From the NCBI RefSeq assembly GCF_020510585.1, contig NZ_CP075190.1, forward strand, positions 1,920,001-1,984,000: a DNA stretch of 64,000 nucleotides. Reading direction: 5' to 3'. A program made the position numbers and the translations under genes. Positions 7,951 through 62,633 of this stretch are shown in pieces. The notes beneath the pieces are model-generated. The model saw only the letters and a program-made list of their open reading frames with translations, did not search any database and was not told where the DNA came from. Each line of letters starts with the position of its first letter. The stretch's first letter is position 1. Source of the stretch: Ferribacterium limneticum. GTDB taxonomy: Bacteria; Pseudomonadota; Gammaproteobacteria; Burkholderiales; Rhodocyclaceae.

Positions 7951-8027
7951 CGGGGCGTAGCGCAGCCTGGTAGCGCATCTGCTTTGGGAGCAGAGGGTCG
8001 TGAGTTCGAATCCCACCGCCCCGACCA
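7951..8027 (+). tRNA. tRNA-Pro (anticodon TGG)
   Basis: The 77-base gene includes an encoded CCA. The acceptor stem CGGGGCG pairs with CGCCCCG. The anticodon stem TCTGC/GCAGA encloses the loop TTTGGGA, giving anticodon TGG. The T-loop is TTCGAAT, and A is the discriminator base. It is followed 21 bases later by tRNA-Arg, so the two are probably co-transcribed. Confidence 0.98.
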
Positions 8028-8048: not shown

Positions 8049-8125
8049 GTGCCCGTAGCTCAACTGGATAGAGCAGCTGCCTTCTAAGCAGCAGGTCGGG
8101 GGTTCGAGTCCCTCCGGGCACACCA
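8049..8125 (+). tRNA. tRNA-Arg (anticodon TCT)
   Basis: The 77-base gene includes an encoded CCA. The acceptor stem GTGCCCG pairs with CGGGCAC. The anticodon stem GCTGC/GCAGC encloses CTTCTAA, giving anticodon TCT, which reads AGA/AGG. The T-loop is TTCGAGT. It marks the border with the lower-GC accessory genes that begin 46 bases downstream on the other strand. Confidence 0.98.
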
Positions 8126-8171: not shown

Positions 8172-9263
8172 TTACCGCTCCTCTTTGGCGAAGAGCATTT
8201 TGCGTGTCAGATGCGGTATCAGCAAATACATTGGCATGCGTAGATAATGGGATCGGACGAATATCAAGAATTTGGCCAGCGACGTAGCCAGAGTTTGGTG
8301 CTTCCCTTCATTCAATATTGCACCAATTGCAGACGTCAAAAGATAGACGACGACGTGAGTTGCTGCACCATTTAAGTTCCCGGCAGTTTTACTTGCTTGC
8401 ACCGCGTTGTCTGGTATTGAAGTTTGAAGAAATATCCTGCAACACTGGAGCGCGTAATATAGGGGACGGCTCAGGTCCAACTCCACCGCTCGTTGAGTTA
8501 GTTGTATCCAGAATTCGTCGTCTTTGGCGAATTGGGTGAGGAGGCTATCGATGTCGACGAGATCGCGTAGCCCGTGCTCCACTTCGCCATCGTGAAAAAG
8601 ATGAGCGGCGCTGTGAAGAATCATGTCTGCTGGGGCTAGTGCAAATACCCCCTCTTTTGTTCTGGATGCTAGTGCTTTGTCCCATAATTGGGTTACATCA
8701 GGTTTCAATGCGGCTGTTGGAGGAAGTATCGTGTGATGAACATCGAGCGATGTACCTCGCTTCAGATGATGTAGCGGAGGTAGTTCGTGCATCCATGTCC
8801 GATAGTATCGCTGGTCGTAGGCGTTCAGCTTTCCAGGAAACCATCCGTTTTCGATGAGGGTGCGCTCTGCATCGATGATATGAGCTTGTGGCACCATGAT
8901 ATCCACATCGGACATCACTCGGCCTACTCCCGCTTCATAGCCCATCACGATGTAGGCACCACCCTTTAGAACGATAAAGGGAATGTTTCTCGGCTTAAGG
9001 GCGCGGTGAATTTGCGTGATCTCCCAGAGCACGTTGCGACGCTGGCTTTCCGCAACCCTCAGGGCGCTTTCGATATGAGGCCTTACTTTTTCTGGTAGTG
9101 AGTTTTGCTGGTTATGTTGGCATACAAGATGAGCGACTCGCGAAAGCAAGTGCCCTCGTCGGGCGGCGCATATTAGTTGGCTCCAATCACATAGAGAAAG
9201 GGATTCAATGGTGGTTCGTGGATTTTGTAGGAATTGGATTAGAGGATGACGCTTTGGGCTCAT
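8172..9263 (-). CDS. Nucleotidyltransferase family protein (PF14907-like)
   Basis: The protein has 363 residues and resembles the uncharacterised nucleotidyltransferase family PF14907. It has KGG at 100-102 and SDVD at 118-121, with the two aspartates typical of metal-binding in the DNA polymerase beta fold. These enzymes transfer a nucleotide or phosphate unit to a protein, peptide or small acceptor; the acceptor here is unknown. The ATG at 9263 overlaps the stop of the HprK-like kinase (ATGA). This argues for that start rather than the TTG 15 bases further upstream. It is the last gene of a four-gene cassette. In some lasso-peptide clusters a related pair of kinase and nucleotidyltransferase modifies the peptide, which is the closest precedent I know. 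Confidence 0.75.
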   Translation of the reverse strand: MSPKRHPLIQFLQNPRTTIESLSLCDWSQLICAARRGHLLSRVAHLVCQHNQQNSLPEKVRPHIESALRVAESQRRNVLWEITQIHRALKPRNIPFIVLKGGAYIVMGYEAGVGRVMSDVDIMVPQAHIIDAERTLIENGWFPGKLNAYDQRYYRTWMHELPPLHHLKRGTSLDVHHTILPPTAALKPDVTQLWDKALASRTKEGVFALAPADMILHSAAHLFHDGEVEHGLRDLVDIDSLLTQFAKDDEFWIQLTQRAVELDLSRPLYYALQCCRIFLQTSIPDNAVQASKTAGNLNGAATHVVVYLLTSAIGAILNEGKHQTLATSLAKFLIFVRSHYLRMPMYLLIPHLTRKMLFAKEER

Positions 9264-10177
9264 GGCTGCACATCGCAAAATAACTTTTCCAATGCAGCAA
9301 TGGCGTCATCTAATCTTGAGTAGCTGAGGGAGCGGCCAAAGCTTCGGTCTGCAACGTTTGTGAGGCAGTGAAATCCATCAACCCCAAGAACGGGGTAATT
9401 GAAACAGTTTTCCGCCAGCTTCATCATTGTCTCGCCCTTGCTGATTGGCTCAAAGTTCAATTCCGAGTTGGGCTGGTAGTGTGGAAAGACCACGGCAAAT
9501 GGGCTGGCAGTGATCTGGCTTGCATCTATGCTGGTTCTGGGGGGGCGCATATGGGCAACATTACCCTTGGCTGTGTCGCCGATGGTTGCACCAAAAACAA
9601 CTTCATTTCCAAATTTCTGGATGATTTCGATAGAGTTGTTCTTTAATCCGATTGGCCTTGGAAAAGGGTGGATTTCATTTGTTTCCAGTGAAATCAACGT
9701 CATCTCGTCGGATAGAAGACGCCATCCTTCACACACCAAAGCTGCGCACAGCGTACTTTTACCGCTGCCGGGTGTTCCTGGAAGAATGAGTCCCTTGCCA
9801 TCTTTTTCGACGATTGCTGAGTGAATTATTGCGAACTGGTGACAATGGTTGGCGATAACCCAATTCAGCCCCCATTCGAACATGGCGAATGCTTGACCAA
9901 TTGGTAGTGGTCTAAACGGGAAGAAACCGTTGCAGGCAAAATTGACCTGCGGGCGAATCAGTCGCCGAGATAGAGATGGGGCATTTATACTGATTTGAAA
10001 ATCTGTAAATCCATCCTCGGCGCCGAGTGGATAGTCTGCGTATAGCAGCGAAAGTCCATCAGTGAGTTGTGGGAGCGAGGAGTGTATGGAGATTTCGAAA
10101 CTGGCCAAGGATAGGCGCAATCCATTCGAACCAAGTCGTCGTCTGATCTCGCTAGTTGAAAGCGATGAAAGCTTCAC
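9260..10177 (-). CDS. HprK-related kinase A
   Basis: The protein has 305 residues and the C-terminal fold of HPr kinase/phosphorylase without its N-terminal regulatory domain. The P-loop GTPGSGKST is at 134-142, in the setting KGLILPGTPGSGKSTLCAAL. The following LLSDEMTLI (D157, E158) corresponds to the second acidic motif. HPr kinases phosphorylate a serine of a carrier protein; relatives in RiPP clusters phosphorylate peptide serines. I recall this subfamily as HprK-related kinase A (TIGR04352), often near exosortase/EPS loci. It starts with GTG overlapping the stop of the PqqD-like gene (GTGA) and overlaps the nucleotidyltransferase by 4 bases. No HPr-like carrier protein is encoded nearby. 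Confidence 0.8.
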   Translation of the reverse strand: MKLSSLSTSEIRRRLGSNGLRLSLASFEISIHSSLPQLTDGLSLLYADYPLGAEDGFTDFQISINAPSLSRRLIRPQVNFACNGFFPFRPLPIGQAFAMFEWGLNWVIANHCHQFAIIHSAIVEKDGKGLILPGTPGSGKSTLCAALVCEGWRLLSDEMTLISLETNEIHPFPRPIGLKNNSIEIIQKFGNEVVFGATIGDTAKGNVAHMRPPRTSIDASQITASPFAVVFPHYQPNSELNFEPISKGETMMKLAENCFNYPVLGVDGFHCLTNVADRSFGRSLSYSRLDDAIAALEKLFCDVQP

Positions 10178-10461
10178 AAAAACTCTTTGATCTCTATTAA
10201 TCCAATATCTTGCAGACTGGCAAGAGTTCGGTCAACGAAGTTCTGAACTTCCTGTTCTGTGCCATCAAGGTGATGCGCCATTTCTCTGGCAAGCAGACTG
10301 CTAGTTCCTGAGTGGTCTCGGAGTATTTCGAAAAGGACAAGTACTGGAGGTGCGATCAGATGAGTCTCGCCAGAGAACGTGTCATACAACAGCAGATCAT
10401 CTTCCAATCGCCGTTCGATGAAACGACCAAAGTTATCGTGCTTAACGCTGATGCTAGGCAA
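10174..10461 (-). CDS. PqqD family protein (RRE-like) of the HprK-A cassette
   Basis: The protein is 95 residues with a PqqD-like winged-helix pattern. It opens with strand-rich sequence (FIERRLEDDLLLYDTFSGETHLIAPPVLVLFEIL), followed by helices ending in VDRTLASLQDIGLIE. PqqD-type domains bind leader peptides of ribosomally made, modified peptides and present them to enzymes. Its partner is unknown, but the gene lies 45 bases downstream of a secreted-protein gene and upstream of, and overlapping, the kinase. The predicted start is TTG without a convincing ribosome binding site, so the N-terminus is uncertain. I recall the matching family as TIGR04353 (HPr-rel-A system PqqD family). Confidence 0.75.
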   Translation of the reverse strand: MPSISVKHDNFGRFIERRLEDDLLLYDTFSGETHLIAPPVLVLFEILRDHSGTSSLLAREMAHHLDGTEQEVQNFVDRTLASLQDIGLIEIKEFL

Positions 10462-10506
10462 TGGAGTTTTACAAAGAGATTAAATGGGAGCGCTCAATTG
10501 ATCCGA

Positions 10507-11184
10507 TTACTGCCAAGTCGTGGTGAGGAATGCGTTAATGCTCAGACCGCCGGGCGGCACCAGAGTGCCATTGGCTAAATCCAGAACTTGCTGAACGGTC
10601 AGTATGTAGTGAAAAGAACTACCCGAGAGTTCACCGAGTTTTGCGTTGAAATATGCACATATCAGATGGCGGGTATTTTGATAGTTGTATGGTTCGTTCA
10701 GTACCTTGGCGAGCCTTTTTGTGCTAGACACGCCATCAGGATTTAAAACACCGGGGATGCTGGAAATCTTGGAGCCTCCCTTGTAGCAATCTGCTTGACT
10801 GGCACTGCCATTTGAACTGCAACCGGGAAGTGTTGAGTCAAAAGTTCCATAGCTGAACCCGATGGCTGTCCAAGCGCCAAGCGTTGTGTAGCTGCTAATA
10901 TTTCCACCGGGTTGTCCCCATCCTCCTGGGCTCCAGCCCTTGCTGCACCGACTGTCCCGGTTAGGGTCGGAGAGATTTCCAGAGAGCATGTTGGATAGGC
11001 ACTGTCCCGCAAGAACAGAACGACTGGATAGCGTCAGTACTACAGGCGCGCCAAGGATACCTAGTCGTGTCAGTTTGCGCCGACCAGAACTCTTGACGCC
11101 GTTTGGACTGGTTTCCTCAGTCACTATCGGATCGATTTTGTCTGACTCTGGGGGGCGATCAAGTTCTTTGTTGTTAGGTGACAT
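10507..11184 (-). CDS. Secreted protein of unknown function, candidate target of the HprK-A/PqqD/nucleotidyltransferase cassette
   Basis: I do not recognise this 225-residue protein as a named family. Residues 1-34 are polar and acidic. RRKLTR at 35-40 and a hydrophobic stretch (about 41-58, ending SVLAG) then form a Tat-like or Sec signal with an unusually long N-terminal extension. The mature part is rich in Gly, Ser and Asn, with five cysteines (first C62) and a GWSPGGW segment. The ATG at 11184 has GGAG 8 bases upstream and is preferred over the GTG three codons earlier. It is the first gene of the cassette, 45 bases before the PqqD-like gene. The long N-terminal extension could be a leader bound by PqqD, and the Ser/Thr-rich body or the C-terminal LTTTWQ could be modified. 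Both ideas are inference. Confidence 0.7.
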   Translation of the reverse strand: MSPNNKELDRPPESDKIDPIVTEETSPNGVKSSGRRKLTRLGILGAPVVLTLSSRSVLAGQCLSNMLSGNLSDPNRDSRCSKGWSPGGWGQPGGNISSYTTLGAWTAIGFSYGTFDSTLPGCSSNGSASQADCYKGGSKISSIPGVLNPDGVSSTKRLAKVLNEPYNYQNTRHLICAYFNAKLGELSGSSFHYILTVQQVLDLANGTLVPPGGLSINAFLTTTWQ

Positions 11185-11385: not shown

Positions 11386-12162
11386 CTATCGAATGGCTGA
11401 CTGTCTAAGAAGTTCTGTGAGAAAGTTCACTGGTATCGCGTATGTAATACCGGACGGGGTACTTAGAGCGGCCTCTCGGGTGCTTTTGATGAATACCATA
11501 TTGATTATTCCAATGACATCGCCGGTTTCTGGATTGAAAACAGGGCTACCACTGTTGCCAGGGTAGGCAGTCGCATCCAGTTGAAATATGTTGAAAACAC
11601 CATTTTTTAATCTATGGATCAATTTTTCGTTGAGTTGTCGCACATTTCCGCTGGGGAGCGCGATGGGAGTGATGGAAGAAACGATACCGCGATGAGTTAC
11701 AGGAGAGAAGCCGAGCGCACCTCCAATGGGAAAACCAGTAAATGTCACTTGCTGGCCTTCCCGTACAAAATCGGAGTTGGCCATGGGAAGCGCTGGTAGC
11801 GATGCTCCCTCTATAGTTAATACAGCGAGGTCGTGTTCTACGTCTTGTTTGGTAAGCAGCGCGCGACGGAGTTGTAACGTGCCCTGATCGCCACGAACTT
11901 GGACCACTAGTATGGGATCATCAGGAGAAAATTTTTCAGGAACCACGTGAGCATTGGTTGCAATGTGGTTGCCGTCTCCGACAACAAAACCTGTTCCCCG
12001 AAGAACGAATTGCGGGCTGCTGGTTTTCTTGAATGTGCCTACGGCAACGATCGATGGTTTTACCTTCTCGATTGTATTTGGAAGGTCTGCAAACGCCACT
12101 TGGGGGCAAGTACATCCAAAAACAATGCAAAATATAACAAAAATAATTTTTATCGGTCTCAC
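11386..12162 (-). CDS. Trypsin-like serine protease (Trypsin_2/S1C family), periplasmic
   Basis: The protein has 258 residues with a signal peptide (hydrophobic 5-24, ending VAFA). The catalytic triad is H72 (TNAHVV), D111 (EHDLAVL) and S204 (GNSGSP), in the order and spacing of HtrA/DegP-like proteases. No PDZ domain follows, so it is shorter than DegP. The GTG start overlaps the stop of the lytic transglycosylase (GTGA), indicating coupling. It is the last gene of the long prs operon. It could process exported proteins or clear misfolded ones during polysaccharide export; the substrate is unknown. Confidence 0.85.
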   Translation of the reverse strand: MRPIKIIFVIFCIVFGCTCPQVAFADLPNTIEKVKPSIVAVGTFKKTSSPQFVLRGTGFVVGDGNHIATNAHVVPEKFSPDDPILVVQVRGDQGTLQLRRALLTKQDVEHDLAVLTIEGASLPALPMANSDFVREGQQVTFTGFPIGGALGFSPVTHRGIVSSITPIALPSGNVRQLNEKLIHRLKNGVFNIFQLDATAYPGNSGSPVFNPETGDVIGIINMVFIKSTREAALSTPSGITYAIPVNFLTELLRQSAIR

Positions 12163-35606: not shown

Positions 35607-37322
35607 ATGACCATCACACTGTCCGAATCCGAGCCAATGTTTGCTACCTCGACTAATTCCTATTGTTTGGGGCGTCATCGGTTTTCTGACTACCAACTTC
35701 AGAAAATTGCCCAAGAGCAAGGCGGAATTGCTGCATGGGCAGCAGCATTCAGAGACTCTGGCACTGACGCTGCCTCCTCTGTCAAAGGTGATTTTGCGGT
35801 AGCGCTCTTTGAACCGCAGGGTAGGGCATATATTGCCGTCGACCGCTTTGCGATTCGTAGCATCTGTTATCAAATTAAAGATGGTCAACTACGCGTTGCG
35901 GAACGCGCTGACGATCTCGCAGACACAGGTGCTGACCTTGATCCACAGGCGCTTTACGATTACCTATATTTTCACATGATCCCTGCTCCGCGCACTGTTT
36001 TCAAGGGGATTTACCGCCTCCCGGCAGGCCACTTTGCTTTATACGAAAATGGCAAACTGACCGTCGCGCCTTGGTGGAAACCCCACTTCATCGAAGATCG
36101 GCGCGTGCCGGTCGGTGAACTGAAAACCGAGTTCCGACAACTCTTGCGTGATGCAGTGACCGATCAACTCCAAGGTGGGACGACAGGCTGCTTCCTAAGT
36201 GGAGGTACCGATAGCTCAACCGTGGCCGGCTTACTCCGAGAGGTCACAGGGCAACCCGCCAAGGCTTTCTCCATCGGTTTCGAAGCTGCCGGTTACGACG
36301 AGATGGAATATGCCCGCCTTGCGGCTCGTCATTTTGGCGTTGAACATCATGAGTACTACGTTACGCCGGATGACCTCGTTCGCAGTATTCCCGATGTCGC
36401 TGCATCCTACGACCAACCATTTGGAAATTCCTCTGTGGTACCAGCTTACTATTGCGCCAAGGCAGCCCGCGAAGCTGGCGTGACCCGGATTCTGGCAGGT
36501 GATGGTGGTGATGAGCTTTTCGGAGGCAACACACGTTACGCAAAGCAGCGGGTCTTTGGTGCCTACGATCACATCCCCGGTATTCTGCGTCGCGGTTTGC
36601 TAGAGCCGCTACTAATCGGTACATCGCTACCTGGCAAAATTCCAGGAATCAAAAAGGCCGTTAGTTATATAGAACAGGCTAGCGTTCGGATGCCGGACCG
36701 CATGCAGATGTATAACCTGCTGACTCGGCTTGGTCTTGCTGAGGTACTTACCCCTGAGTTCCTTGCGCAGGTTCAACCAGAAGATACCATCCGCCAGCAG
36801 AGGGAAACCTACAATTCTGGCGACGGACATGCACTCGTTAACCGCATGCTCTGGTATGACTGGAAGTACACCCTGGCTGATAACGATTTGCCCAAAGTGG
36901 TCGGGGCAACTACATTGGCCAATATTGACGTTGGTTTCCCGCTTCTGGACGACCGCCTGCTTGATTTCTCGCTGCGCCTTGATCCTGAACTCAAACTCAA
37001 GGGTTTGACCTTGCGCTGGTTCTTCAAGGAAGCACTGAAAGATTTTTTACCCCCAGAAATCATCACCAAGAAAAAGCACGGCTTTGGCCTGCCATTTGGA
37101 GTTTGGGTAGTAAAACACGCCGGTCTACGGCAATTGGCGCTCGATTCACTAAGCTTGTTGCGAAGTCAAGGCGTCATTCGGGCTGATTTCCTCGATCGCC
37201 TGATTAAAGAGTACCTGCCGCAACACCCTGGGTACTACGGCGAGATGGTGTGGATTTTAATGATGATGGGACAGTGGACTGCCACAAATGGGGGGGCTTC
37301 ATATCAGAGAAGTAAATCATGA
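35607..37322 (+). CDS. Asparagine synthetase-like protein lacking the glutaminase cysteine
   Basis: The protein has 571 residues. The C-terminal half is an asparagine-synthase PP-loop domain with SGGTDSS at 198-204 and GDGGDELFGGNTRYA, and should bind ATP and adenylate a carboxylate. The N-terminal part resembles a class II glutaminase domain but lacks the essential Cys2 (it begins MTITLSES). It is shortened, with the PP-loop about 70 residues earlier than in the intact homologue at 58030-59937. It cannot use glutamine by itself and may use ammonia or an amine, or form an amide or ester on a sugar acid. It overlaps the next GT2 gene by 4 bases. Confidence 0.83.
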   Translation: MTITLSESEPMFATSTNSYCLGRHRFSDYQLQKIAQEQGGIAAWAAAFRDSGTDAASSVKGDFAVALFEPQGRAYIAVDRFAIRSICYQIKDGQLRVAERADDLADTGADLDPQALYDYLYFHMIPAPRTVFKGIYRLPAGHFALYENGKLTVAPWWKPHFIEDRRVPVGELKTEFRQLLRDAVTDQLQGGTTGCFLSGGTDSSTVAGLLREVTGQPAKAFSIGFEAAGYDEMEYARLAARHFGVEHHEYYVTPDDLVRSIPDVAASYDQPFGNSSVVPAYYCAKAAREAGVTRILAGDGGDELFGGNTRYAKQRVFGAYDHIPGILRRGLLEPLLIGTSLPGKIPGIKKAVSYIEQASVRMPDRMQMYNLLTRLGLAEVLTPEFLAQVQPEDTIRQQRETYNSGDGHALVNRMLWYDWKYTLADNDLPKVVGATTLANIDVGFPLLDDRLLDFSLRLDPELKLKGLTLRWFFKEALKDFLPPEIITKKKHGFGLPFGVWVVKHAGLRQLALDSLSLLRSQGVIRADFLDRLIKEYLPQHPGYYGEMVWILMMMGQWTATNGGASYQRSKS

Positions 37323-56818: not shown

Positions 56819-58033
56819 CTAAACCTGCAAGCCGGTTAGCTGTTGATAGGGGGCGCGATAGTTAGCAACGCTGCTCTGCCAGTTCCGGATGTTTTCGACA
56901 AACTGACGGCCATTGGCTTTGAGCTCAGGCCAGCGATGACGGTCGTTGAGCAGATTTAGCAGCGCTTGGGTTAGCGAATCACGATCTCCTGCTCTGAAAA
57001 GGATGCCGGTCTTGTTGTGCTCGACCAGTTCTTTGTGGCCACCGACATCGGAGGCGACGAATAGCTGGCCTTGGGCCATGGCTTCCAGGGGTTTGAGCGG
57101 CGTGACAAGCTCGGTCAGGCGCATCGGGTGGCGCGGGTAGGCGAGGACGTTGATCAGGTCGTAATAGCGGCTGACGTCTTTGTGCGGTACGCGGCCGGTA
57201 AAGATCACGACATCATTGAGACCGAGTTTGTCTGCTTGCTGGCGAAGGTTGGCTTCCTGCGGGCCGCCGCCGACAAGCAGGACGCGAATGTCAGGTTGAG
57301 ATGCGATGAGGGCGGGTAGTGCATCCAGCAGCAGGTCAAGGCCTTCGTAAGCGTAGAAGGAGCCGATAAAGCCGATGACGGTTTTACCGGTCAATCCCCA
57401 TTTTTTGAGGAGTTCGGGGTCGGGCGGGCTGGCCAGGTTGAAGGAGTCTATGTCGACGGCGTTGGGGATGACAGTGACTTTATCGGCGGAAATGCCGCGC
57501 CTGACGATGTCGGCGCGAAGGCCTTCGCAGATGGTGAAGACGTGGTCGACTTGCTCAATGGCACGGGTTTCGAGTTTGCGCGTGGCGCGGTAGCGCAGGC
57601 TGCCTTCGCTGGTGGTGCCGTGGTCGACTGCCGCATCTTCCCAGAAGGCACGGATTTCATAGACTACCGGGATGCCGAGACGGCGCGCCACCTTGATGGC
57701 GGGAAGGACATTGAGCACCGGTGAGTGGGCGTGAATGATGTCGGGGCGAACCTCGCGGGCGACTTCTTCCAGCCGGGTTTCCAGTTGCTTCATCAGGGCC
57801 AACTCCTTGCCGATGGGCAGGCTGGCCAGGGTGCCGGTGGCGAGCGGGGTGCGGAAGAAGCGCAGGCCGTCGACATCTTCAAAAGGCGCGTCCGTTTCGC
57901 CTTGCTTGGGCGAGGTGAGGTGAAATGTTTGCCAGCCGAGGGCGCGCTGTTCACGCAGCAGCGCAGCGGTGCGGAAGGTGTAGCCGCTGTGCAGGGGGAT
58001 GGAATGGTCGAGGACATGGAGAACGCGAATCAT
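56819..58033 (-). CDS. Glycosyltransferase, exosortase A-associated (TIGR04063-like)
   Basis: The protein has 404 residues of GT4 type. It starts MIRVLHVLDHSIPLHSGYTFRTAALLREQRALGWQT, which matches the exosortase A-associated subfamily I recall as TIGR04063 (named for a Dechloromonas aromatica protein). The donor-binding end has PRHPMRLTELVTPLKPLEAMAQGQLFVASDVGGHKELV. It overlaps the amidotransferase by 4 bases. It belongs to the conserved core of XrtA loci. Confidence 0.92.
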   Translation of the reverse strand: MIRVLHVLDHSIPLHSGYTFRTAALLREQRALGWQTFHLTSPKQGETDAPFEDVDGLRFFRTPLATGTLASLPIGKELALMKQLETRLEEVAREVRPDIIHAHSPVLNVLPAIKVARRLGIPVVYEIRAFWEDAAVDHGTTSEGSLRYRATRKLETRAIEQVDHVFTICEGLRADIVRRGISADKVTVIPNAVDIDSFNLASPPDPELLKKWGLTGKTVIGFIGSFYAYEGLDLLLDALPALIASQPDIRVLLVGGGPQEANLRQQADKLGLNDVVIFTGRVPHKDVSRYYDLINVLAYPRHPMRLTELVTPLKPLEAMAQGQLFVASDVGGHKELVEHNKTGILFRAGDRDSLTQALLNLLNDRHRWPELKANGRQFVENIRNWQSSVANYRAPYQQLTGLQV

Positions 58034-59937
58034 GCCGGTTGGCCTTGTTCCATGACGTTGCGCAGGAAGGCTTCAAACATCAGCAAGGTCCAGATCGAGG
58101 CGCTGTAGTCGCGGCTGCCGTTGTTGTGGGCGTCGACGAGGTGTTTCAGGTAGTCGCGATTGAACCAGCCGGTGCCGGCCAGGCGCGGGCCGAGCAGCGC
58201 ATCCTGGACGCGCTGTTTGAGCGGGCCGCGGAACCAGCGGGCGAGAGGTACCGAGAACCCCATTTTCGGACGATAGAGGACGTCGTTGGGGAGTAAGGGC
58301 TCCATCGACTTTTTGAGCAGGTATTTGGTTTCCTGACCGCGAATTTTCTGGGAGGAGTTCAGCGTGGCCAGCCATTCGATCAGTTCGTGGTCCATCAGCG
58401 GTTCGCGGACTTCCAGCGAATGGGCCATGCTGGCGCGGTCGACCTTGGTGTTGATGTCGCCGACGAGGTAGGTTTTGAGGTCGAGATACTGAATCTGGGC
58501 CAGCGGGTCGTCGGTGTTGGCTTTTTCTGCATGCTGTTTGAATGCATCGATGGCGTTGTAGCCACCGAGGGCTGATTTGAATTTCTGGCTGAATAGCTGG
58601 TTGCGCATCGGGGCGCGCAGAATCGATACTGAGTGGAAGTAAGCTTCCACCGAGCTGCGGGCGATGCCTTCAAAGGTTGTTTTGGCGCGGAAGACGCGTG
58701 GCGCCCAGTCGGCTTTCGGGTAGAGCTTGCCCAGAGCGCCGAAGACGGGGCGACGCAGGCTCAGCGGCAGGGCCGAGCGCATTTTTTCTTCCATCAGGTG
58801 CAACTTGTAGCGGCGGTAGCCGCCGAAGCTTTCATCGCCGCCATCGCCGGAAAGGGCAACGGTGACGTGTTTGCGGGCCAGTTGGCAAACGCGGTAGGTG
58901 GGGATGGCGGAACTGTCGGCGTAGGGCTCGTCGTAGAGTTTGGCCAGGGTGTCTATGAGGTCGAAGTCGTCGCTTTCGACGATGTCGAGGTGGTGGTTGG
59001 TGTGGTAGCGGTCGGCCACCATTTTGGCGAATTCGGATTCGTTGAAAGCGGGGTCGGAAAAGCCGATCGAGCAGGTGTTGACCGGGTTTGGCGAGAGGCC
59101 GGCCATGATGGCGACGACGGCGCTTGAGTCGACGCCACCGGAGAGGAAGGCGCCGAGTGGCACTTCCGAAATCATGCGCAGTTTGATCGACTCTTCGAGT
59201 CGGTGGGTCAGCTCGGCGCGGGCGTCGACATCGTTGATCGGGTTATCGAGCGTAAAGCGGACATCCCAGTATTCGCGGGGTTCGCCGACCGGCTGGCCAC
59301 GGCGCAGGAGCAGGGTGCAGGCGGGCGGGAGCTTTTGGGCTTGCTTGAAGATGGTGCGCGGCTCGGCGACGTAACCGAGGGCAAAGTATTCCTCGACGGC
59401 GCACGGGTCGATGTCGCGTTTGAGGGCGCCGTGGGCGAGGATGGATTTGAGTTCAGAACCGAAGAGGAAGGTGCCGTCGTCAAGCAGGGCGTAGTAGAGC
59501 GGCTTGACGCCAAGGCGGTCGCGAGCCAGAAAGAGCGTTTCGCGATTGCGGTCCCAGAGGGCGAAGGCGAACATGCCGCGGAAGCGGTCGACACAGCTTT
59601 CGCCCCAGGCTTCCCAGGCGTGCACGATGACTTCGGTGTCGCTGCGGGTGTGAAAAATATGGCCGAGCGCTTGCAACTCCGGGATCAGCGCCTGGTAGTT
59701 GTAAATTTCACCGTTGAAGACGACGCAGACGCTCTGGTCTTCGTTGTAGAGCGGTTGCTGGCCCGTGGACAGGTCGATGATCGACAGGCGACGGTGGCCG
59801 AGCCCGACGCCGGGTTCGACATGCAGGCCGCCTTCATCAGGGCCGCGATGGAACTGCGCTTCGTTCATGCGATTCAGTAGCGCACGATCGATGTCGCTTT
59901 TGCCTCGGGTGTCAAAGATGCCTGTGATGCCGCACAT
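58030..59937 (-). CDS. Amidotransferase of the XrtA/PEP-CTERM system (asparagine synthase-like, TIGR03108-like)
   Basis: The protein has 635 residues with the intact glutaminase domain starting MCGITGIF (catalytic Cys2). RGPDEGG and FNGEIYNYQ are both present. The synthase domain has the PP-loop SGGVDSS from about 266. It should transfer amide nitrogen from glutamine to a carboxylate, perhaps a uronic acid of the polysaccharide, since a nucleotide-sugar dehydrogenase is encoded in the same locus. It is part of the conserved XrtA core and differs from the cysteine-less homologue at 35607-37322. Confidence 0.92.
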   Translation of the reverse strand: MCGITGIFDTRGKSDIDRALLNRMNEAQFHRGPDEGGLHVEPGVGLGHRRLSIIDLSTGQQPLYNEDQSVCVVFNGEIYNYQALIPELQALGHIFHTRSDTEVIVHAWEAWGESCVDRFRGMFAFALWDRNRETLFLARDRLGVKPLYYALLDDGTFLFGSELKSILAHGALKRDIDPCAVEEYFALGYVAEPRTIFKQAQKLPPACTLLLRRGQPVGEPREYWDVRFTLDNPINDVDARAELTHRLEESIKLRMISEVPLGAFLSGGVDSSAVVAIMAGLSPNPVNTCSIGFSDPAFNESEFAKMVADRYHTNHHLDIVESDDFDLIDTLAKLYDEPYADSSAIPTYRVCQLARKHVTVALSGDGGDESFGGYRRYKLHLMEEKMRSALPLSLRRPVFGALGKLYPKADWAPRVFRAKTTFEGIARSSVEAYFHSVSILRAPMRNQLFSQKFKSALGGYNAIDAFKQHAEKANTDDPLAQIQYLDLKTYLVGDINTKVDRASMAHSLEVREPLMDHELIEWLATLNSSQKIRGQETKYLLKKSMEPLLPNDVLYRPKMGFSVPLARWFRGPLKQRVQDALLGPRLAGTGWFNRDYLKHLVDAHNNGSRDYSASIWTLLMFEAFLRNVMEQGQPA

Positions 59938-59964: not shown

Positions 59965-61125
59965 TTAATTTCCGGTTGACCGTAGCATTCTGCCAAGCAG
60001 TCGGTCGTAAATCTGCTGGTAGCTGTCGATCATGGCCGTCATGCTGAATTGTGCCTCAATGCGCTTCCGTCCGGCATAACCCATGGCACGGGATTTTTCC
60101 GGGGAATGGGCGAGGTTGATGATGGCTCGGGCGAGGGCGCCGGGATCAGCCGCCGGGACCAGATGGCCGGTGCGCCCTTCCTGGACCAGTTCCGGATTTC
60201 CACCGACGTCGGTGGCGATCACTGGTAATCCGCTGGCCATGGCTTCGAGGATGGTATTGGAGATGCCTTCGCCGAGCGAGGGCAGGATGAAACAGTCAAG
60301 CCCGCGCATGATGTCGGGGATGTCATTACGTTCCCCGGGCAGCCACGCGAGTTCGGCAAGGCCGGCTGTTTCGAGGATGGCGAGCGATTCGTGGCGCAAG
60401 GGGCCGTCGCCGACCATGACCAGACGCAGGAGCTCGCGCAGGGATGGTTCGATATTGATGGCCAAAACGAAGGCACGGGCCAGGTTGGTTTGATCCTTGA
60501 CGGTCTGCATGCGGCCAGCGGTACCGACGAGCCAGAGCCCGGCTTGGTTAAACGGGGAACCGGAAATGTCTTGTCGCTCAGGGGCGGGATGGAAACGGGC
60601 GGCATCCACTCCGTTATAGATTTGCGTCACGCGCTTTGCACTAATGCCAACGGGATGGGTGAGATAGTGCGCGAGATCCTGGGACAGGGCTATGTAGTGT
60701 TTCACGAACGGACTGTAAATTCGTCGAATCCATTGGCATTTCTTGTTTGTGCCGTCAAAGTCGCCAACGTCGCGGCCATGTTCGCCATGGATACGTGCCG
60801 GCACTCGGGCAGCCCACGCCGGCACGGCGGCTTCCAGCGCGGCAAGGTTACGGGTGTGCACGATCGCCGGCTTGAGTTGGCGGAACAGGCGATAAAGCTG
60901 CGGATATATCCAGAGCACATGACCGGGTTGCTTGTTCAGGGCAAAAAACTGGACATCAGGACGCTGGATGCGGTTTTTGAAGTCGGTGATGTCGGTAAGT
61001 GCGATGACAGCGTGGCGGTAGGCATTGACCGGCATATGGTTGATCAGGTTCACCACGCCGTTTTCAAGTCCACCCGTATCGAAGCGGTGCAGGACGTGGG
61101 CCACGAGGGGGCGGCCATCGCTCAT
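59965..61125 (-). CDS. Glycosyltransferase, PEP-CTERM/EpsH1 system-associated (TIGR03088-like)
   Basis: The protein has 386 residues with a GT-B fold. It starts HVLHRFDTGGLENGVVNLINHMP, the signature of the subfamily I recall as TIGR03088. The donor site contains PSLGEGISNTILEAMASGLPVIATDVGGNPELV. It overlaps xrtA by 4 bases and lies 27 bases before the amidotransferase start. It is part of the conserved EpsH/XrtA core. The sugar transferred is unknown. Confidence 0.93.
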   Translation of the reverse strand: MSDGRPLVAHVLHRFDTGGLENGVVNLINHMPVNAYRHAVIALTDITDFKNRIQRPDVQFFALNKQPGHVLWIYPQLYRLFRQLKPAIVHTRNLAALEAAVPAWAARVPARIHGEHGRDVGDFDGTNKKCQWIRRIYSPFVKHYIALSQDLAHYLTHPVGISAKRVTQIYNGVDAARFHPAPERQDISGSPFNQAGLWLVGTAGRMQTVKDQTNLARAFVLAINIEPSLRELLRLVMVGDGPLRHESLAILETAGLAELAWLPGERNDIPDIMRGLDCFILPSLGEGISNTILEAMASGLPVIATDVGGNPELVQEGRTGHLVPAADPGALARAIINLAHSPEKSRAMGYAGRKRIEAQFSMTAMIDSYQQIYDRLLGRMLRSTGN

Positions 61126-62633
61126 TTCAGCCGTGCCTCGGTCAGGCTACGCAGTATTTCGCCGCCAGCCTCGTTTGCGAAGGCTGGCAAATCCTTGGCG
61201 GCCGAGTCTTTCGGAGCGTAGATAATGATAGCGGCGCTATCGTCGCCGTGCCCGGTGAGCATGGCCCATGCGGTCAGCCATTTGGCTTCGATATCGCTTG
61301 AGGTCAGGCGCCCGTTGATCCAGTATCCCTGCCAGATGATGTAGCGCTCATTCGCAATATCCTGTTTCTTCAGTAGTTCAGCCTCGCGAATAGCTACTTG
61401 GCTGCCACCGAAGCTCGTATTTGCCTGACGATTTGCGACGATTTGCCAGAGCGGGTCGCTCGACGTCACAAGCACGTTGGTGGAGGTCACCAACTTGCGC
61501 TCGTAGTTCTGGTTTTGGTAGTAGGCGATGTAAAGACCGACCCAGCCATCCTGGTTGCGGTAAGCCGAGTGCAGTTCCGCCGAGGGATTGGTGAATCGCG
61601 GTTGCCACTCAATGGCAGGGGCCTCGGTATGCCAGGATCCGGCAGTGGCTGGTAGTGCAAGATTGATGACGGCGTCGGTGTTGGCCTGCCGCAGACGCAT
61701 TTCGTAGAGCGAGCCGGCTGCGATGACGACTGCGAGAATGAGCATGATCGTCCAGGTATGCAGCGGCTTCTGGAATTTGCTGCCTGGCGCCGAAGTGACG
61801 CGCTGGGCTGTCTGGATTGGTTCAGCCCAGCGGGCACCAATCGCAAACATGATAACGATGACTATTCCGAAAAAGACCCAACCGTAGATCAGGTGGTCCG
61901 CTCCGACCGCGAGCTTGTTACCCGAAAAGTGGCCAAGCATTACGATCATATAGGCGCGTAGCCAATTAGCAAGGATGGGGACGAGCAGCGAAACGAGGAT
62001 GAAAATCAGCCGGCGCTTGAGCGAGGTATAGGTCAGATAAGCGTATAGCGTGCCGACCGTCAGCGACGCGATCAAATAGCGAACGCCGCTGCAGGCTTCG
62101 ACGACAGACCAGTTACCGCTGGGGATGACGAAGTTCTGCCCTTCGCGGAAAACGGGAATGCCGGTCAGGCGCAAGGCCAGTACCGTAAAGTCGGCGGTCC
62201 ATTCCATCAGGCGCGGCAGCAGGAAGTCGCCGACAGGGACTGCAAAGAAGAGAAAGAGTAGCGGGAAGGCCAGGACCTTGCTGATTGGCCAGCCAACTAG
62301 GGCCATGATCGCTACGACGATCAAGCCGATGACGGCAAACTGGGTCAGGGCGTTGACAGCGGTTAGATCACCGAGCAACCACAGAAAAACGAAGCCGGCG
62401 AGAGGCATGGCAAACCACAGGGTGGCATGCGGGGCAAGCGCTACTGGCCGCTGCCGGTCGCGCCAGATGAGCCAAAGCGCGATAGGCGGCACGATGAGCC
62501 CATGGGCGTAGGTTTCTGATCGCCACCAGATCTGCGCCATAGCCTCCAGTGTTCCCCAGTACCAATAGCCGATCCAGAGGAGGGTCAGCGCAATTGCGGC
62601 CAGGGTCGGCTTCCAGTTGGGCCGATGGGTCAT
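61122..62633 (-). CDS. xrtA: Exosortase A with fused EpsI domain
   Basis: The protein has 503 residues. The N-terminal two-thirds is a multi-span membrane cysteine protease/transpeptidase-like domain with predicted active-site residues C181 (SVVEACSGVRYLIAS), R226 (ILANWLRAYMIV) and H247 (GADHLIYG). A C-terminal EpsI-type domain (about 310-500) follows a further membrane helix. Exosortase A sorts PEP-CTERM proteins across the inner membrane and probably cleaves or transfers their C-terminal signal. No PEP-CTERM substrate is encoded in this window. The gene overlaps its neighbours by 4 bases on both sides. Confidence 0.96.
   Translation of the reverse strand: MTHRPNWKPTLAAIALTLLWIGYWYWGTLEAMAQIWWRSETYAHGLIVPPIALWLIWRDRQRPVALAPHATLWFAMPLAGFVFLWLLGDLTAVNALTQFAVIGLIVVAIMALVGWPISKVLAFPLLFLFFAVPVGDFLLPRLMEWTADFTVLALRLTGIPVFREGQNFVIPSGNWSVVEACSGVRYLIASLTVGTLYAYLTYTSLKRRLIFILVSLLVPILANWLRAYMIVMLGHFSGNKLAVGADHLIYGWVFFGIVIVIMFAIGARWAEPIQTAQRVTSAPGSKFQKPLHTWTIMLILAVVIAAGSLYEMRLRQANTDAVINLALPATAGSWHTEAPAIEWQPRFTNPSAELHSAYRNQDGWVGLYIAYYQNQNYERKLVTSTNVLVTSSDPLWQIVANRQANTSFGGSQVAIREAELLKKQDIANERYIIWQGYWINGRLTSSDIEAKWLTAWAMLTGHGDDSAAIIIYAPKDSAAKDLPAFANEAGGEILRSLTEARLK

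Follow-up and report, generated by a model that had tools for sequence, protein, structure and literature searches.

Two described groups of peptide-modifying systems come closest to the locus considered here, a four-gene cassette at positions 8172-11184 of a 64,000-nucleotide stretch of the Ferribacterium limneticum genome (contig NZ_CP075190.1, positions 1,920,001 to 1,984,000; hereafter the window). The first group makes the linear polyphosphorylated peptides (LPP) of Bacillota (Popov et al., 2026; PMC13381572). In the parts of that paper drawn on here, LPP systems have a discrete recognition element for ribosomally synthesized and post-translationally modified peptides (RiPP recognition element, RRE) occurring together with an HprK-like kinase and an NTP-transferase, a combination that the window cassette shares; the kinase LppK phosphorylates Ser3 of the LPP core, the precursors are conserved in the N-terminal region and vary in their C-terminal parts (35-200 residues), and the genes are frequently placed inside capsular polysaccharide loci. 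The same parts of the paper also mark the differences: LPP leaders have the motif YxxPxVLxHQxIxFETxxS, a SipW-like signal peptidase cleaves them, and LPP clusters also encode an MsbA-like exporter, whereas a twin-arginine (Tat) signal is proposed as leader here; the substrates of the window type are mostly proteins of about 200 residues; and LPP are called restricted to Bacillota, whereas the present loci come from Pseudomonadota.

The second group consists of the lasso peptides paeninodin and pseudomycoidin, in which, according to the portion of the pseudomycoidin review used here (PMC9266682), an HprK-like kinase acts on a conserved C-terminal Ser beside PsmN, annotated as a nucleotidyltransferase: PsmK phosphorylates that Ser, and PsmN puts one or two hexoses on the phospho-Ser. 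Lasso RREs share the fold predicted for the PqqD-like protein of our cassette, although the lasso precursors in that source are short and the substrates here are exported proteins; no lasso cyclase or B2 protease was identified at the cassette loci, where no dedicated search for them was made. Two further comparisons concern names and neighbors. In NCBIfam, the kinase and the PqqD-like protein both score over the cut-offs of HPr-rel-A families (TIGR04352 and TIGR04353, the latter a PqqD family peptide chaperone), whereas the substrates of either type gave no more than isolated, chance-like hits to NCBIfam or Pfam models. The cassette also adjoins an XrtA/PEP-CTERM exopolysaccharide locus, but its exported protein lacks a PEP-CTERM-like end, and no XrtA passes the cut-off in 36 of 57 further genomes that have the kinase. 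An earlier note, made from the sequence of the window, had described the cassette as one of no demonstrated function; the literature that we searched indeed held no report of phosphorylation or nucleotidylation of such an exported protein, though the system already bears a name, NCBI's HPr-rel-A, and LPP has the same three kinds of enzyme.

Proposed System

The four genes probably make up a dedicated system for modifying a single exported protein ahead of its export. Acting as an RRE, the PqqD-like protein would bind the 225-residue protein at its Tat-type signal peptide rather than at the polar N-terminus and would present it to the HprK-like kinase, which would add one phosphate or perhaps several to a conserved Ser. 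In the window protein this Ser would most likely lie within C62-LS-NM-LS-GN-LS, right past the signal; in a second type of substrate (type 2, below) it would be the Ser of a C-terminal C-x-x-S-[FLI] motif, or a Ser just past the signal. Next, the PF14907 enzyme would add a cap to the phospho-Ser, a sugar or a nucleotide being the likeliest. The Tat pathway would export the modified protein, signal peptidase would remove the signal, and the product would, in many genomes, go on to act together with an exopolysaccharide. We propose this chemistry because of the LPP (LppK) and pseudomycoidin (PsmK, PsmN) precedents; by that analogy Ser phosphorylation is likely, sugar capping of the phospho-Ser is an even guess, and a tie of the product to exopolysaccharide is speculative.

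Gene Content and Enzymes of the Cassette

The features of the cassette are as follows.

8172-9263, minus strand: PF14907 nucleotidyltransferase (NTase) gene, 363 residues from ATG
9260-10177, minus strand: HprK-related kinase A gene, 305 residues, GTG start
10174-10461, minus strand: PqqD-like discrete RRE gene, 95 residues, TTG start
10507-11184, minus strand: exported protein gene, 225 residues from ATG, a type-1 substrate
10969-11001, minus strand: candidate Ser acceptor segment of the exported protein, C62-L-S64-N-M-L-S68-G-N-L-S72, directly after the signal
11008-11082, minus strand: Tat-type signal peptide of the exported protein, residues 35-59, RRKLTRLGILGAPVVLTLSSRSVLA, carrying the motif P47-V-V-L-T51-L52

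All four minus-strand open reading frames (ORFs) that the earlier note listed are present in the order it gave, as are the P-loop GTPGSGKST and the SDVD that it had pointed out. Its 4-base overlaps hold for the junctions of the PqqD-like gene with the kinase (10174-10177) and of the kinase with the NTase (9260-9263), but the three genes give two overlaps only; 45 bases lie between the exported-protein gene and the PqqD-like gene. The kinase belongs to TIGR04352 (361.9 bits against a cut-off of 200), the PqqD-like protein to TIGR04353 (54.5 bits against 35), and the NTase to PF14907 (194.1 bits against 31.2), which we take to be the family of PsmN as well; no curated family in Pfam or NCBIfam matched the window's exported protein. 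The cassette recurs in many genomes, so the gene set is not a chance assembly.

The active-site residues of both enzymes are conserved: kinase residues H119, K140, D157, and E158 are kept in all 98 aligned sequences, and NTase residues R114, D118, D120, D173, and H175 (numbered on the 362-residue translation of 8172-9260) in all 84. The PqqD-like protein has a winged-helix RRE fold in the structure prediction, with the lasso-peptide RREs (lasso B1) as its nearest fold, which fits its earlier assignment to a leader-binding type. Two other loci, L153 and L166, have long frames on the same strand that run up to the kinase start, where a PqqD-like gene would be expected; no substrate was seen near them.

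These enzymes also bear on what the end product would be. The RRE, kinase, and NTase might act on the exported protein to leave a nucleotide, as in AMPylation, with phosphate as an intermediate or the kinase in a regulatory role. Conservation of the DxD of the NTase speaks for this, and the pseudomycoidin review, in the portion used here, leaves room for nucleotidylation with a host glycosyltransferase acting afterwards (PMC9266682); yet in the same source PsmN, the relative that was tested, yields a hexose on phospho-Ser, and we regard a nucleotide product as rather unlikely.

An Exported Protein Accompanies the Kinase

The window protein consists of a variable N-terminus (1-34), the Tat-type signal (35-59; R35 R36, a hydrophobic stretch, and the A-x-A-like end V57-L58-A59), the acceptor-like segment (62-72), and, starting near residue 80, a domain that is predicted with confidence and runs to the C-terminus. 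A homologue search with it returned 169 relatives, 120 of them listed. In an alignment of the window protein with 30 of the listed relatives, the N-terminal 34 residues vary, and the RR pair, much of the signal, and the segment C-L-S-N-M-x-S-G-N-x-S ... C..G.SPGGWG show little or no variation; C62, S64, and S68 are conserved in at least 90% of 46 aligned type-1 proteins. In the structure model, segment 62-72 has a predicted local distance difference test (pLDDT) score below 50 almost throughout. PEP-CTERM proteins end in a PEP motif, a transmembrane segment, and a basic tail; the window protein ends in SINAFLTTTWQ and is not one of them.

Substrate and enzymes travel together, and both their linkage and the identity of the exported protein as the substrate are near certain. 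Among 369 genomes of the class, a profile of the exported family matches 29, the kinase is over its cut-off in 41, and both occur in 28 (Fisher p 6e-31), with the exported family beside the kinase. The linkage anticipated by the earlier note thus extends to 28 of the 29 family genomes; the 29th (G184, E 4e-4) owes its match to a short precursor from a sister system (see below), and the kinase match 1 kb from it is under the cut-off. A second, distant type-1 copy occurs in genome G296 (L106, 7405-8601), on a contig other than that of its cassette: its frame is 398 residues long with the signal internal, no kinase was found in the 15.5 kb fetched, and it is possibly an orphan substrate. One member of the exported family, P0120, bears the source name "PqqD family protein of HPr-rel-A system", which was probably transferred from a neighbor.

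We extended the survey with a phylum-wide draw, in which the kinase was over its cut-off in 61 of 398 genomes, and fetched the flanks of 96 kinase loci (40 from the class sample, not counting the window, and 56 of 57 new ones). To these were added the below-cut-off locus L076, counted separately as a member of the sister system, and the Dechloromonas locus L004; the fragment in G524 was left out. The set for the kinase tree is 97 kinases, including the window and L004, with L172 (59 bases upstream) omitted. A hidden Markov model (HMM) of the signal, built from 27 of these same loci, found an exported ORF upstream of the kinase at 81 of 98 loci, and nine more ORFs were chosen by eye. In the tree set, an exported ORF with a twin-arginine signal stands beside 90 of the 97 kinases. 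RR is present in 89 of the 90 substrates as cut, and the 90th, L179, has RRSF in the alignment. Elsewhere in the loci only three matches exceed 8 bits, two of them cassette substrates.

Two Substrate Types Follow the Kinase Tree

The substrates fall into two types. Type 1, to which the window protein belongs, has C-x(1,2)-S-x3-S after the signal. Type 2 has a Ser and then a Cys after the signal (40 of 45 proteins) and C-x-x-S-[FLI], mostly SCWxSF, at or close to the C-terminus. These motifs divide between the kinase clades: C..S[FLIVA] lies in the last 16 residues of 42 of the 49 substrates of one clade, 0 of the 40 of the other, and 2 of 919 other proteins from these loci (46 of 49 in the type-2 clade if the last 30 residues are taken), and CxxSxxxS or CxSxxxS follows the signal in 32 of the 40 as against 1 of the 49. 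Since type 2 is partly defined by its C-terminal motif, the invariance of that motif in alignment A2 is by construction, and the count by kinase clade is the independent one. Over 86 labelled rows of the kinase tree, nine of them labelled by eye (L138, L140, L144, and L145 as type 2; L075, L100, L135, L164, and L179 as type 1), a single change of substrate type is needed, which indicates that kinase and substrate type are inherited together; three loci (L067, L083, L084) were set apart as type-2-like, and L178 was left unassigned. The branch between the types has a value of 98 in the Shimodaira-Hasegawa-like approximate likelihood ratio test (SH-aLRT) in the quick tree; in the careful tree, the starred sets given for the window do not include it.

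A type-2 profile matches 30 of the 369 class genomes, with weak matches in G201, G080, G224, G111, G056, G055:C19, G286:C464, and G184:C4. The mature part of type 2 has an even number of Cys in 44 of 45 proteins, as expected of disulfides formed outside the cytoplasm. Of the 45 proteins, 43 have 129-234 residues; L081 and L160 have mature parts of just about 12 and about 20 residues, with the S...C and CxxS motifs kept in both. In the three type-2-like proteins the C-terminal Cys is lost and S-I retained, which points to the Ser. A Ser also occurs at positions 1-6 past the presumed cleavage site in 33 of 39 anchored type-2 proteins (36-37% in control windows). Scans of the 45 type-2 and 46 type-1 proteins gave no common NCBIfam or Pfam family, only isolated chance-like matches.

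The Tat-Type Signal as Proposed Leader

The earlier note had placed the recognition leader in the polar 34-residue N-terminus. That idea finds no support, since this part varies among relatives, while the substrates share the Tat-type signal; from the sequences we propose a double role for the signal, as export signal and as RRE leader. The strict motif P-h-h-x-T-[LVIM] occurs in 55 of the 90 cassette substrate signals and in none of the 30 other Tat signals drawn as background from 15 genomes, and a looser form in 63 of 90 as against 2 of 30.

A sister system offers a comparison. Seven loci (L076, L196-L200, L209) each have one to three short frames, 63-106 residues long, whose signals are of the same kind (SRR[DQ]FLKK.AYVAPAILTL.A.PA.A..GS-like), and the lasso/LPP leader motif [YW]xxPx[LVIFA] is present in all 11 of these precursors. 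An HprK-like kinase below the TIGR04352 cut-off accompanies them at five of the seven loci (not L197 or L200), and a PqqD-like protein is found at L196 and L198. Our reading is that these loci form a sister system whose RRE motif coincides with its Tat signal; its short frames look like a separate RiPP-like family. On this reading, the main family has lost the aromatic residue and has often kept the Pro and a hydrophobic residue after it.

Because the segment common to the substrates is the Tat signal itself, with its T-L motif, the PqqD-like protein might instead be mainly a Tat chaperone that retains the substrate until it has folded or assembled, with the kinase as a timing switch whose phosphorylation of the signal region (T51, S53, or S54) blocks or permits export. 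We consider this improbable: the 46 type-1 proteins have post-signal Ser conserved in at least 90%, and no Ser or Thr of the signal is so conserved; in the 45 type-2 proteins only the C-terminal Ser is invariant, though it is also a selection criterion; and the NTase would have no role in such a scheme.

Several observations weigh against a dedicated modification system guided by the signal. Six of the 97 kinases have no recognized substrate (L152, L153, L159, L166, L176, L190), and a seventh, L066, is at a contig edge; no NTase lies within the fetched stretch at 14 of 96 loci. Ordinary background Tat signals (30 examined) reach up to 18.6 bits on the signal HMM, and 22 of the 81 substrates found with it score at or below that value, nine of them below 8; the HMM alone is no proof, so the low-scoring calls lean on place and motifs. 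The 27 seeds of the model, moreover, come from the tested loci, and the nine further ORFs are by-eye picks. The strict signal motif is missing in 35 of 90 substrates, and [YW]xxPx[LVIFA] in all 90, the window included, so that we infer the binding site on the signal. A Ser at positions 1-6 past the presumed cleavage site is found in only 18 of 33 anchored type-1 proteins. On the side of the enzymes, kinase E158 stands where HPrK has its second Asp, and deletion of lppN, the LPP NTase gene, had no effect in a heterologous host, according to the part of the LPP paper used here (PMC13381572).

Genomic Setting

The cassette sits near polysaccharide genes in many genomes. Upstream of it in the window are a lytic-transglycosylase-like gene and a protease gene, given below, and further upstream an exosortase A/PEP-CTERM exopolysaccharide region with PrsT, PrsR, PrsK, EpsB_2, ligase_PEP_1, and XrtA (61122-62633).

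11386-12162, minus strand: trypsin-like serine protease (Trypsin_2) gene, upstream of the exported-protein gene

Homologues of this protease occur at 22 of 96 cassette loci and in none of 20 random stretches, as a frequent but not universal neighbor that could process the product. Immediately past the NTase gene lie a tRNA-Pro (7951-8027) and a tRNA-Arg (8049-8125), and the G+C content drops from 0.58-0.60 to 0.48-0.50 at the cassette; together these may mark the edge of an island. The polysaccharide region of the window also encodes an asparagine-synthase-like protein (35607-37322), and 58030-59937 looks similar by eye.

Exosortase A is over its cut-off in 35 of the 41 kinase genomes of the class, as against 38 of the 328 others, and in 21 of the 57 further kinase genomes. 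At 35 fetched loci without exosortase A, glycosyltransferases and amidotransferases are frequent among 101 scanned neighbor proteins, 13 of which are asparagine-synthase and glutamine-amidotransferase proteins. Polysaccharide-type genes stand beside 53 of 96 loci as against 2 of 20 random stretches; they are found at 30 of the 35 loci of the group without exosortase A and at none of the 11 in f213/f246. The polysaccharide setting is thus common, not universal.

Two readings of this setting have to be weighed. The product might be a lasso-like or otherwise cyclized RiPP, its ring closed on the precursor by an asparagine-synthase-like protein of the neighborhood: such proteins are common at the loci without exosortase A, one lies in the window, and the predicted RRE fold is nearest to lasso B1. 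This is very improbable, however, as those of the window are at least 24 kb away, the one scanned is below the cut-offs of the amidotransferase and asparagine-synthase models, and 43 of the 45 type-2 substrates are 129-234 residues long. Equally hard to credit is that the exported protein is unrelated to the enzymes and shares only their place in polysaccharide islands: the locus does lie within an exopolysaccharide region, where genes travel together, but the substrate type tracks the kinase tree and the ORF stands beside the kinase even in groups with differing neighborhoods.

Implications

A dedicated system for one exported protein would give the HPr-rel-A families of NCBI a concrete, testable substrate in about 100 sampled genomes. 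We offer tentatively, as a possibility that may well prove wrong, the wider view that it is a Gram-negative, protein-scale relative of RiPP systems, in which the signal would serve as the RRE leader, phosphorylation in the cytoplasm would be followed by phosphate-linked glycosylation and export, and a phospho-sugar would tie the protein to exopolysaccharide; the peptides of 12-20 residues and the proteins of 200 residues would be its two ends. The finding suggests that RRE-guided modification reaches beyond small peptides, and that an export signal may double as a modification leader. It also adds a second phylum, after the Bacillota of LPP, in which an HprK-like kinase and a PF14907 enzyme adjoin polysaccharide genes, and a link of these modifications to the extracellular matrix becomes testable.

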